Part shown: positions 38,410 to 42,490 of the stretch, in pieces
How positions within the stretch are numbered: position 1 is the stretch's first letter
Layout: every line of letters starts with the position of its first letter
NCBI GenBank assembly: GCA_020720045.1
Contig: DYPH01000024.1
Span: 1,752 to 53,925 of the forward strand
Origin: Sorangium cellulosum
GTDB lineage: Bacteria > Myxococcota_A > Polyangia > Polyangiales > Polyangiaceae
Length of the DNA stretch: 52,174 nt
Direction of reading: 5' to 3'
Translations under genes and position numbers: made by a program
The notes under the pieces: model-generated
Databases searched by the model: none
The model's input: the letters and a program-made list of their open reading frames with translations, nothing else
Told to the model about the DNA's origin: nothing

Positions 38410-39774
38410 TCAGAGGTCGTCGATGAAATAATCTTTCAACTTGTACAAGAGAGCGCGATGACTGATTTCGAGCAGTTCTGCCGCGCGTGTGCGATTCCCT
38501 CTGGTCTTCACAAGGGCCCGCCGAATGAGAATTTGCTCGACGGCAGCGACCGTCTTCTTGATGGAGAGCTCCCCCGAGGCGAGCTGCACCTGCACCGGAT
38601 CGAGCGCTTGCCGGAGCCTTTCTGGGAGGTCATGGAGCTCAATACAATCGCCTTCCGCGAGGACCATCGCCCGCTCAATCGTATTTTCGAGCTCGCGGAC
38701 GTTCCCCGGCCAGCCGTACTCGAGGAGCAGCCGTTGCGCCTCAGAAGAGAGCCCGCGGAGCTTCGTCCCGAGGCGCTCGTTGTTTCGGGCGAGGAAGTGG
38801 TCGACGAGCACCGGGATGTCCTCTCGGCGGTCCCTAAGCGGCGGGATCGGCAGCGAAAGCACGTGAATTCGGTAGAAGAGATCTTCCCGAAAGCGGCCCG
38901 CTTTTGCATCGGCGGCGAGGTCGCGATGGGTCGCGGCGATCACACGGACGTCGACCTTGATGTCCTTGCTGTCGCCGAGGCGACGAATCGTCTCTTCCTG
39001 CAAGACACGGAGGAGCTTTACTTGCAGAAGGAGCGGCAGTTCTCCGATTTCATCGAGGAAAAGCGTTCCACCTGAGGCCTCTTCAAAGAGGCCACGTCGG
39101 TCCGAACTGGCATCCGTGAAAGCCCCTTTCTTGTGGCCAAACAGCTCGCTTTCGAGGAGGTTCTCCGGGATCGCTCCACAATTGATAGCAACAAAAGGTT
39201 TGTGTTTTCGAGGGCTACGGTCGTGAATGGCTCGCGCAACAAGCTCTTTGCCGACGCCGCTTTCCCCGTTTACAAGGACGGTAGTCTTAAAGTCGGCGAC
39301 TTTGGCGATCGTCCGAAAGACCTCTTTCATCGGTGCGCTCTTCGCGAGGATCGACTGAAAGGTGTGCTCGCTCTCTACCTGGGCCCGGAGCTTCCGATTT
39401 TCGCGACGGAGCGACTCGCGTTCCTCGGCCTTCTTGAGGACAAGGAGCATTTCATCCTGTTTGAAAGGCTTCTGGATGTAGTCGTAGGCCCCCGCCTTCA
39501 TCGCCTCAAGGGCGAGGTCGACGCTGCCGTAGGCGCTCATGACGATGACCGTCGCCCGGTGCCCCTTCGCCTGAAGGGTGCCGAGGAGGTCGAGGCCGCC
39601 CACCTTCGGCATGCGCACGTCGGTCAGGACGACGTCGGGGTCGAAACGATCGAGCTGGGCGATCGCCTGCTCGCCATCTTCGGCGGTCTCGACCTCGTAG
39701 CCGTTTTTCCGGAGGAGCGTCCGGAGCACGAGGCGAATGTTCTCTTCATCGTCGACGACCAAAATACGGCGCAC
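38410..39774 (-). CDS. NtrC-family sigma-54-dependent response regulator
   Basis: A 454-aa response regulator. Receiver domain: acidic VVDDEEN and phosphoacceptor Asp52 in [16 protein letters not shown]+ domain (about 130-370): Walker A GESGVGKE, sigma-54 contact loop [13 protein letters not shown], Walker [14 protein letters not shown], and the arginine-finger region [22 protein letters not shown]. The C-terminal Fis-type HTH reads [32 protein letters not shown] 39774 is chosen because GAGG lies about 5 nt upstream (GCGAGGTCCCGTG); a TTG four codons earlier is weaker. No cognate histidine kinase is adjacent. The short spacer to the CLC gene (59 bp) suggests possible cotranscription. Confidence 0.93.
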
Positions 39775-39896
39775 GGGACCTCGCAAATCTTTGCGTAGAC
39801 CCTATCCGCTTTTCCAGAACCTGCACAGAAACGTTGCAGTTCACTCCGCATACTTTTCCATGTGCCGCTTCTTCCCGCGCGAGATAGCGTCGCTGC

Positions 39897-41090
39897 GTGC
39901 ATTTCGGAATTGATCGCCTCCCGACGGAAACGAAACTCGTGGCGCGCCTCCGCGAAGGGCGCTTCGGCCTCCTCGCACACCCGGCGTCGGTCGACGGGCG
40001 CTTTCGCCACCTCCGCCACCTCCTCCACGGCCTCGGCGCGGCGCCAGCGATCGTGTTCGGCCCCGAGCACGGCTACGGCGGCGAGGCGCAGGACATGATT
40101 GGCGTCGACGACTCACGGGACGCGTACGGTACGCGGGTCGTAAGTCTTTATGGTGAGGACTTTTCAGCGCTTACGCCCAGTGCCAGCGACATCGAGGGCC
40201 TCGATCTCGTCCTGTGCGACCTCCAAGACGTCGGCGCGCGGTACTACACGTTCGTCTGGACGGCGCTCCTCATGCTTCGAGCCTGCGCTGCCCGAGGGAT
40301 TCCCTTGGTGGTCCTCGATCGCCCCAACCCACTCGGCGGTGTCTTGCGCGAGGGTGCGTTCCCAATTTCTGAACCCTTTCATTCATTTGTCGGTCTTGAG
40401 CCGCTCCCCGTGCGCCACGGCTTCACCCTCGGGGAGATTCTCAAAATCCGCGCTCACGAGGAAAAGATCGACCCGGCGCTCCTCGAGGTAATCGCCGTCG
40501 ATGGCTGGGACCGGGAAAAGAGCGCCTACGGCGATGCAGCGCTCCGGGGGCGCTGGGTCCTCCCGTCACCGAACATGCCGACCCCGGAAACGGCGCTCGT
40601 CTACCCCGGTGGCTGCCTCCTCGAAGGGACGAACCTCTCCGACGGCCGCGGCTGCACGCGCCCTTTTGAGATCACCGGCGCCCCCTGGCTCGACGGCGAA
40701 GCGCTCGCAAAAGCGCTTTCTGAGTCAGGACTTCCAGGCTTTTTTGCTCGCCCGATGGTCTTCCAACCGACCTTCCACAAGCACGCCGGGATCCTCTGCG
40801 GCGGCGTGCAAATTCATGTGACCGACCCCGTCCACTTTCGCCCCTACGCGACCTACCTCGCGCTCATCGCCTTCGCGGCCCAAGCACATCCCGATTCGTT
40901 CCGTTTTCGTACGGAACGCTACGAATTTGTGGACGATATTCCCGCGTTCGATCTCCTCACCGGCACCGACAAGGCGCGCGCCGCCATTCTCGCCGGTGAG
41001 CCCCCACGCGAGATCGCCGGCCATTTTTCGCAAATTTCTCCGGCAAGTGCCGCTCGCCTCGGAGGCTGGCTCGACGTGGTCGGTGCGTGA
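39897..41090 (+). CDS. NamZ-like exo-beta-N-acetylmuramidase (DUF1343)
   Basis: A 397-aa DUF1343 protein. The family includes NamZ (GH171), which removes terminal MurNAc from peptidoglycan fragments during cell-wall recycling or predation. Conserved motifs are FGLLAHPASV, VFGPEHGYGGEAQD, CDLQDVGARYYTFVWT, LDRPNPLGG, SPNMPTPETALVYPGGCLLEGT and GRGCTRPFEI. No signal peptide is visible, so it looks cytoplasmic. GTG 39897 is the start. A hairpin with weak T-tail lies at 41094-41117 just past the stop, and a candidate sRNA follows on the same strand. Confidence 0.88.
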   Translation: MHFGIDRLPTETKLVARLREGRFGLLAHPASVDGRFRHLRHLLHGLGAAPAIVFGPEHGYGGEAQDMIGVDDSRDAYGTRVVSLYGEDFSALTPSASDIEGLDLVLCDLQDVGARYYTFVWTALLMLRACAARGIPLVVLDRPNPLGGVLREGAFPISEPFHSFVGLEPLPVRHGFTLGEILKIRAHEEKIDPALLEVIAVDGWDREKSAYGDAALRGRWVLPSPNMPTPETALVYPGGCLLEGTNLSDGRGCTRPFEITGAPWLDGEALAKALSESGLPGFFARPMVFQPTFHKHAGILCGGVQIHVTDPVHFRPYATYLALIAFAAQAHPDSFRFRTERYEFVDDIPAFDLLTGTDKARAAILAGEPPREIAGHFSQISPASAARLGGWLDVVGA

Positions 41091-41117: not shown

Positions 41118-41209
41118 TTGCTTGGCGCCGAACTTTCGCGGGGAAACGGCAATAACTTCGTGGTTTTCGCGAATATTTTCCTCGAGGCACGTTTTTTTCG
41201 CGGAAAGAC

Positions 41210-41238
41210 TTGCCTCCCGCGCCGCCTTGCCATAGGGT
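41210..41238 (+). promoter_or_regulatory. Promoter of the candidate sRNA
   Basis: TTGCCT (41210-41215), a 17-bp spacer and TAGGGT (41233-41238). AT-rich runs at 41172-41198 lie directly upstream, as in an UP element. It predicts a start near 41245. Confidence 0.55.
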
Positions 41239-41244
41239 CAGCAT

Positions 41245-41356
41245 CAGTTCACGGGAAACCGGTGAACGCTCTTCAAGAGCTCGTGCGCCTCCCTCCCCCC
41301 AACCGCGCGAGCTCGCCGTGCCCGAAGGCCTCTGGTCTTTGGGCACGGTTCTTTTG
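41245..41356 (+). ncRNA. Candidate small regulatory RNA with a C-rich loop
   Basis: A transcript of about 110 nt is predicted from the promoter at 41210 to a strong terminator. Hairpin 1: GTTCACGG-GAAA-CC(G)GTGAAC (41247-41267), a GNRA-type tetraloop. Hairpin 2: an 11-bp stem of GAGCTCGTGCG (41277-41287) with CGCGCGAGCTC (41304-41314), one G-U pair, whose 16-nt loop is CCTCCCTCCCCCCAAC. The loop contains CCUCC, complementary to Shine-Dalgarno sequences. Hairpin 3 is the terminator. No ORF or known RNA family is recognised. C-rich-loop sRNAs elsewhere inhibit translation at ribosome sites; a similar role here is inferred. Confidence 0.6.
41317..41355 (+). terminator. Strong intrinsic terminator of the candidate sRNA
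   Basis: A 14-bp stem with loop TCT: 41317-41330 pairs with 41334-41347, with two G-U pairs. It is followed by GTTCTTTT. On the opposite strand no T-tract follows, so it works in the + direction. Confidence 0.85.
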
Positions 41357-41479: not shown

Positions 41480-42490
41480 CTACTTTTCGAGCTCTTCGGC
41501 GAGATAACCGAGGATGATCTCGTCCAGGCTCTTGTCGCGCAGGATCGCTTCCGACGCCTTTGACACCGCGCGCTTTGCGCCCCGAAAAATCTCCGCCGGT
41601 CGTGCCGGAGAGGGGCGCGGAGGCGTCGACTTTGTCCGCGGTCCTGGGCGATTGCTCGCGCGTTTGTTTTCCTCTTTGTTGGCCCGCGGCGGCTCGCTCG
41701 GTGGGACGAGGCTCCGGTAGCGCGCACTCTGCGGAAGTTCCTTCGAAAATGCCGTCTTGGGTGGCGGCGGACGATCGCCGAGGGCCAGCTCGTTGCGGCC
41801 GAGAGCGGGCGGCAAATTGGGCGACGAAGATCGACGCGTCGATGGAGCATTTTCTGCAGCGGCCGCTGACGCCATCAATGGGGGAAGCACCGGTGAAGAC
41901 GGCGGGTCTTCCAGCGGGAACGCATGACCCGGTTTCGGCTCCGGTGCCGCTTCGGGGGAGACAACGGGCTTGACCTGCGTCGGCACCGCTTCCGACATCG
42001 GAATACCCGACATCGGGGGCGCCTCGTCGAGGGTGATCGCAGGGATCACGAGCTTCGGGCGCGCCTCCGGGGCGACGCCGATGATCGTCGCCCCTTCTCG
42101 TGAGGACGGCGGCGGCGTCGGCACCCGAGGAGCTTCCGCCCGCTTTGTGCCAGGTACCACGCTCGCGACCGGCTCGGTCATCGCCTCCGGCGCTTTCGCG
42201 ATCGGCTTGCCTTCAATCGCATCATCAAAGGTCCCATCGCGCAGAGCGATAAATATCGCCTTGTGCTGCTCCTTCATGATTTTTCGAACGATATCAGCCA
42301 CATCGCTTGCTTCGACATGCTCGGCATAGCTCTTCTTGACCGATTTAAGGATGCGCCCGCCATCCATGAAAAGGTGCGTAATGACGTGCGGCTTCGCCAG
42401 CCCGCTGTCTTCCGTTTGAATATGGAAGACGCGACCTTTGTGCCGAACGTTGTTGTTGTAGCCGACGAGCGGCGATGGCGCCTTGGCCAT
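41480..42490 (-). CDS. Conserved myxobacterial protein with structured ends and disordered middle
   Basis: A 336-aa protein without signal peptide. The N-terminal 100 residues are highly patterned: LVGYNNNVRHKGRVFHIQTEDSG, then THLFMDGGRILKSVKKSYAEH and IMKEQHKAIFIALRDGTFDD. I recognise this block as a conserved hypothetical domain in Myxococcota. Residues 110-290 are Pro/Ala/Ser-rich and disordered. The C-terminus SEAILRDKSLDEIILGYLAEELEK is a conserved amphipathic helix. The layout suggests a cytoplasmic adaptor with a folded domain, a flexible linker and a docking helix. Function is unknown. It has its own terminator at 41388-41418. Confidence 0.75.
   Translation of the reverse strand: MAKAPSPLVGYNNNVRHKGRVFHIQTEDSGLAKPHVITHLFMDGGRILKSVKKSYAEHVEASDVADIVRKIMKEQHKAIFIALRDGTFDDAIEGKPIAKAPEAMTEPVASVVPGTKRAEAPRVPTPPPSSREGATIIGVAPEARPKLVIPAITLDEAPPMSGIPMSEAVPTQVKPVVSPEAAPEPKPGHAFPLEDPPSSPVLPPLMASAAAAENAPSTRRSSSPNLPPALGRNELALGDRPPPPKTAFSKELPQSARYRSLVPPSEPPRANKEENKRASNRPGPRTKSTPPRPSPARPAEIFRGAKRAVSKASEAILRDKSLDEIILGYLAEELEK

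Follow-up and report, generated by a model that had tools for sequence, protein, structure and literature searches.

The window, by which we mean the whole analysed stretch of 52,174 nucleotides, belongs to a 6.3-Mb draft genome (G000) placed in Polyangiales, Myxococcota, and it almost certainly encodes, judging by sequence comparison, a short regulatory RNA that is common to about a dozen related bacteria. The reading that we favour, and that we hold to be probable, is that of a trans-acting, base-pairing small RNA (sRNA) of about 110 nt, with its own promoter and terminator, in which a C-rich loop would be the seed for G-rich mRNAs. The features of the locus are the following.

39897-41090 (+): exo-beta-N-acetylmuramidase gene of the NamZ type, 5' of the sRNA and outside it (Pfam PF07075 and PF20732)
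41190-41209 (+): T-rich, UP-like stretch upstream of the promoter; the same at 20/20 positions in G000 and in G001, a second genome from this genus
41210-41238 (+): promoter-like pair TTGCCT - 17 nt - TAGGGT, read by eye, -35-like at 41210-41215 and -10-like at 41233-41238
41245-41356 (+): putative small RNA gene, with both transcript ends predicted
41247-41267 (+): hairpin H1, from the fold; 8/8 model pairs change on both sides, 84% of cells paired
41277-41314 (+): hairpin H2, from the fold, an 11-bp stem presenting the C-rich loop; both sides altered in 8/11 pairs, 96.7% of cells paired
41288-41303 (+): C-rich loop of H2, CCUCCCUCCCCCCAAC, 16 nt with a CCUCCC core inside; proposed seed
41315-41356 (+): hairpin H3 plus U-run, intrinsic terminator from the terminator scan; 12/14 pairs change on both sides
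41480-42490 (-): gene of a RomY N-terminal-domain protein (NCBIfam NF053858, 8.4e-34), with the sRNA at its 3' end

Three hairpins make up the fold of the RNA 41245-41356 (-60.3 kcal/mol; z = -6.9), and none of 200 shuffles equals it. In this fold, the stem of H3 proper spans 41315-41349 and the U-run follows. A sequence-only reading of this DNA had proposed a candidate small RNA here, with a 17-nt-spaced promoter and an upstream AT-rich run, three hairpins, a 14-bp intrinsic terminator and, in the central hairpin, a 16-nt loop made almost only of C and U and containing CCUCC and CUCCC. Selection, covariation, the terminator and the strand assignment all lend strong support to the candidate. 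Each of the parts just listed was recovered in the sequence, the terminator scan giving H3 16 pairs instead of 14. We also scanned 0.91 Mb of the same genome for a C-rich-loop hairpin with a following terminator: this custom scan returned the 41245-41356 site and two weak ones, and no second arrangement of comparable strength, while Markov-simulated copies gave 0-1 per copy.

We infer transcription in part from the promoter-like pair, which is weak by consensus and whose details are not kept across the sRNA family. A simple sigma-70 consensus scan did not report it because TAGGGT is far from TATAAT. By visual inspection only, the arrangement is sigma-70-like and no -24/-12 element was seen. 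G001 shares 94% identity with the window over 41210-41244, and a similar TTG-17 arrangement lies upstream of the Labilithrix-type members of the family and of G035.

Selection, covariation and family range

The element is under selection and its flanks are not. Indeed, in G001, 111 of the 112 aligned element positions are the same (99.1%), with in addition a 2-nt CC insertion in the loop, whereas the flanking intergenic DNA of G000 and G001 shows 81% and 76% identity on the two sides (element and promoter against flanks, p = 7e-9). A plain DNA search of 97 relatives gave, besides the window, only two real matches, in G001 and G035; seven others look like chance GC-rich coding similarity.

A first covariance model, built on three sequences, was run on 108 genomes of the family and found seven new members (E 3e-9 to 8e-6), and the member of G029 was first spotted by its position beside a RomY-like gene. 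A second model, built on 11 sequences, added G128 as well as two weaker members, G050 and G048, which score about 32 bits each and have a visible C-loop stem and terminator. The sRNA family thus has 14 members, of which 12, the one in the window among them, are confident and 2 are probable; all of them lie within one family of Polyangiales, some in genomes named Labilithrix. No convincing member was found outside this family by covariance search of 184 genomes from the order, 379 from the phylum and 318 from the class, with strict filters that may miss diverged ones, and a phage collection gave no match to the element. In a pattern scan of genome contigs, 4 of the 12 matches were real members and the remainder poly-C runs. 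The weak covariance matches L044-L070, most of L081 and L085-L104 were judged by eye to be coding or bare terminators. Separately, L080 (G069), L083 (G099) and L086 (G125) are intergenic hairpin elements of 28-34 bits that have either no C-rich loop or no terminator; they are possibly distant relatives or chance, and were excluded from the family as doubtful.

The compensatory changes on which the sequence-only reading had staked its proposal are present in the relatives. Over the 14 sequences, 91.7% of the pair cells hold standard pairs and 28 of the 33 pairs change on both sides, while slid controls reach 33-51% paired with 6-11 pairs changing on both sides, and none of 500 shuffles does as well; over 11 sequences, the corresponding values are 92.7% of cells and 22/33 pairs. 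As the model guided the alignments, these figures lean towards the structure; even a plain alignment of the window with G035, though, had shown compensatory changes in all three helices. Moreover, G-U wobbles outnumber A-C mismatches (35 vs 5 in the 14 sequences), and the H3 stem is followed, in every one of the 14 members, by 5-7 T within the next 7 nt; both observations assign the RNA to the + strand. Because it is conserved, covarying and strand-resolved, the element at 41245-41356 is not a product of chance.

The C-rich loop and its proposed partners

The accessible C-rich loop is kept while the stems covary, which is the mark of the trans-acting C-rich-loop sRNAs. Its length ranges from 12 to 23 nt, its flanks vary by lineage and the U shifts position, and CCUCCC is kept in 13 of the 13 loops inspected. 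The product of the shuffle probabilities for this core, 6.5e-8, is overstated, as lineages were treated as independent. A core kept amid varying flanks is the pattern that a pairing seed would show. According to the mechanism that we propose, the rigid, GC-rich stem of H2 would hold the loop of 12-23 nt single-stranded, and its CCUCCC core would pair with selected mRNAs at G-rich, GGGAGG-like stretches, some of which would lie at ribosome-binding sites. We infer this pairing, as well as the direction of the regulation, through which the translation or the stability of the target mRNAs would be altered. Experiments on Pxr, NfeR1 and PmaR, described below, provide precedents for a C-rich loop that acts as a seed. 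H1 and H3 would shield the ends of the RNA, H3 also stopping transcription, and the pairing would need neither Hfq nor ProQ. Hfq was not found in the 17 genomes searched for it, nor ProQ in the 10 searched, and positive controls were found; the draft state of some of these genomes weakens the two negatives.

A narrower form of this reading is that of a strict anti-Shine-Dalgarno sRNA, the loop of which would mimic the 16S rRNA tail and block GGAGG ribosome-binding sites as alpha-r14 RNAs do. The anti-Shine-Dalgarno function, already put forward from the sequence alone, is plausible but only in part supported, as the CCUCC(C) core is present and kept in all the loops inspected. In a 0.91-Mb sample with crude first-ATG starts, GGAGG stands upstream of 2.8% of first ATGs vs 1.4% at internal ATGs, so that it is enriched about 2-fold, and GGGAGG about 4-fold for an absolute frequency of 0.6%; these are small counts, and such frequencies would imply a small regulon. 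Against this form, target prediction at start regions, advised by the earlier reading, gave the real loop no advantage over scrambled C-rich loops: its start-site preference is -1.01 kcal/mol, compared with -0.94 +/- 0.14 kcal/mol for scrambled loops of the same composition. Since scrambled loops favour starts equally, the loop may pair with G-rich mRNA stretches generally. In addition, no GGAGG was found just before the start codon in the start regions of the RomY-like genes, the neighbours of the sRNA. For these reasons the strict form seems possible but rather unlikely. As a side observation, the rarity of GGAGG before first ATGs in this 0.91-Mb sample, with its crude starts, suggests that strong Shine-Dalgarno sites may be of little importance in this lineage.

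The loop might instead be bound by an RNA-binding protein, the RNA being then a protein-binding or protein-titrating one. Hairpins bound by proteins likewise have the shape of a stiff stem with one conserved loop, and with Hfq and ProQ not found, another protein may handle the RNA. We nevertheless hold this to be distinctly unlikely, as no candidate protein was identified and as a loop length of 12-23 nt with changing flanks is more readily reconciled with base pairing than with a fixed protein site.

Genomic setting

The element is intergenic, between the NamZ-like gene on the + strand and the RomY-like gene on the - strand. A NamZ-like gene also lies 5' of the sRNA in G001, G129 and G048. 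Of the 12 confident members, 11 have a RomY-like gene beside the sRNA, which lies just 3' of this gene in either orientation. In seven members (G000, G001, G029, G106, G112, G128 and G129) the two are convergent, in four (G035, G110, G113 and G114) the sRNA directly follows the RomY-like gene on its strand, and in G105, G048 and G050 the neighbours are other or unseen. Since both orientations occur, the element is not the UTR of one gene, and this free orientation argues for the sRNA as its own transcription unit. It could still be proposed that the element has no independent function and only supplies the NamZ-like or RomY-like gene with a terminator and a processed 3' UTR, which would suit the four same-strand members and the quality of H3 as a terminator. 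This proposal is very unlikely: besides the seven convergent members and those with different neighbours, a promoter-like pair stands between NamZ and the element, and a terminator accounts neither for the conservation of the C-rich loop nor for the covariation in H1 and H2.

The adjacency of the RomY-like gene does not thereby make it a target of the sRNA. The window genome encodes two RomY N-terminal-domain proteins, at 41480-42490 and at G000:C103:524-946; many relatives likewise have two, the second being often of 450-700 aa.

Other C-rich-loop RNAs

As the sequence-only reading had found no named family for the element, so did the scan of Rfam 15: no family matched at gathering score and nothing meaningful appeared up to E = 10, the best sub-threshold matches, mir-769, SNORA52 and MH_s10, being all unrelated. 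The element most likely represents, by analogy, a new family that would work like the known C-rich-loop sRNAs and that is a member of neither Pxr nor alpha-r14.

To our knowledge, myxobacteria have few described small RNAs, of which Pxr is the best studied. It gates multicellular development via its C-run loop, and its direct targets are largely uncharacterised. Pxr of Myxococcus xanthus resembles the RNA described here in several respects, since it comes from Myxococcota, measures about 110 nt, has three stem-loops with a C-run in a loop and a terminator-like third hairpin, and operates in an organism with no Hfq; a single C-to-A change in its loop inactivates it (PMC5568312, PMC5684412). It differs in that its C-run is in hairpin 1 and not, as in every member here, in hairpin 2 of the model, perhaps in its predicted sigma-54 promoter, and in its neighbours, pxrK being named with pxrR and the gene lying between pxrR and pxrA (PMC5568312, PMC5684412), where we find NamZ-like and RomY-like genes. 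At the window locus, an NtrC-like gene does exist at 38410-39786, past NamZ on the opposite strand, and the Pxr placement, directly downstream of the NtrC-like pxrR with pxrA opposite, is not found. The Pxr sequence that we compared and folded was assembled from the primers and probe in PMC5568312, the position numbers of which disagree slightly; it folds likewise and its terminator, like that of our element, ends in UUCUUUU, and no similarity to our element was noticed beyond the terminator tail. Pxr is reported only from Cystobacterineae, whereas the model searches of phylum and class returned no member outside one Polyangiales family, and thus a diverged member of the Pxr family is extremely unlikely.

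The alpha-r14 RNAs of alphaproteobacteria share with our element the three hairpins, an unpaired anti-Shine-Dalgarno motif containing CCUCC and diverging stems; one of them, NfeR1, silences ntrB through its anti-Shine-Dalgarno seeds independently of Hfq (PMC10746234). In these RNAs an identical CCUCCUCCC motif is carried by each of the three hairpins, in contrast to the single, variable C/U loop with CCUCCC found here on H2 only; together with the other phylum and the missing Rfam match, this sets our element apart from alpha-r14. PmaR of Agrobacterium also has a stem with a single-stranded C-rich loop, which binds targets directly, and a loop mutant loses binding (PMC6234868); it is one spoon-like hairpin from another phylum with targets mostly outside ribosome sites, and no homology with it is claimed. 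Staphylococcal RsaA and its relatives, in unrelated hosts, contain C-rich unpaired sequences, and RsaA is reported to pair with a Shine-Dalgarno sequence (PMC3961350); likewise, sX13 of Xanthomonas, another unrelated host, is listed for its C-rich loops (PMC3771888).

We suggest, quite tentatively, that Myxococcota, which seem to have no Hfq, repeatedly evolved unrelated sRNAs whose C-rich loops, borne on rigid stems, serve as chaperone-free seeds, namely the present family, Pxr and a triple-C-loop element, the present sRNA being a conserved regulator near a RomY-like gene. A second, unrelated and well-conserved C-loop RNA family, in Polyangiales, would offer an independent system for studying how sRNAs reach their mRNAs with neither Hfq nor ProQ, in a genome that seems poor in strong Shine-Dalgarno sites.

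The triple-C-loop element is a separate intergenic one from another Myxococcota family, found at L094/L197 (G203), L198 (G211) and L199 (G195). It consists of three C-rich-loop hairpins (about GATCCCCCCCTCAC, TTCCCCCCCCAGG and TTCTCCCCCCCAGG) and a terminator, after TTGACC-17-TATCTT, and it is strongly conserved within its genus, with a layout that resembles that of alpha-r14.
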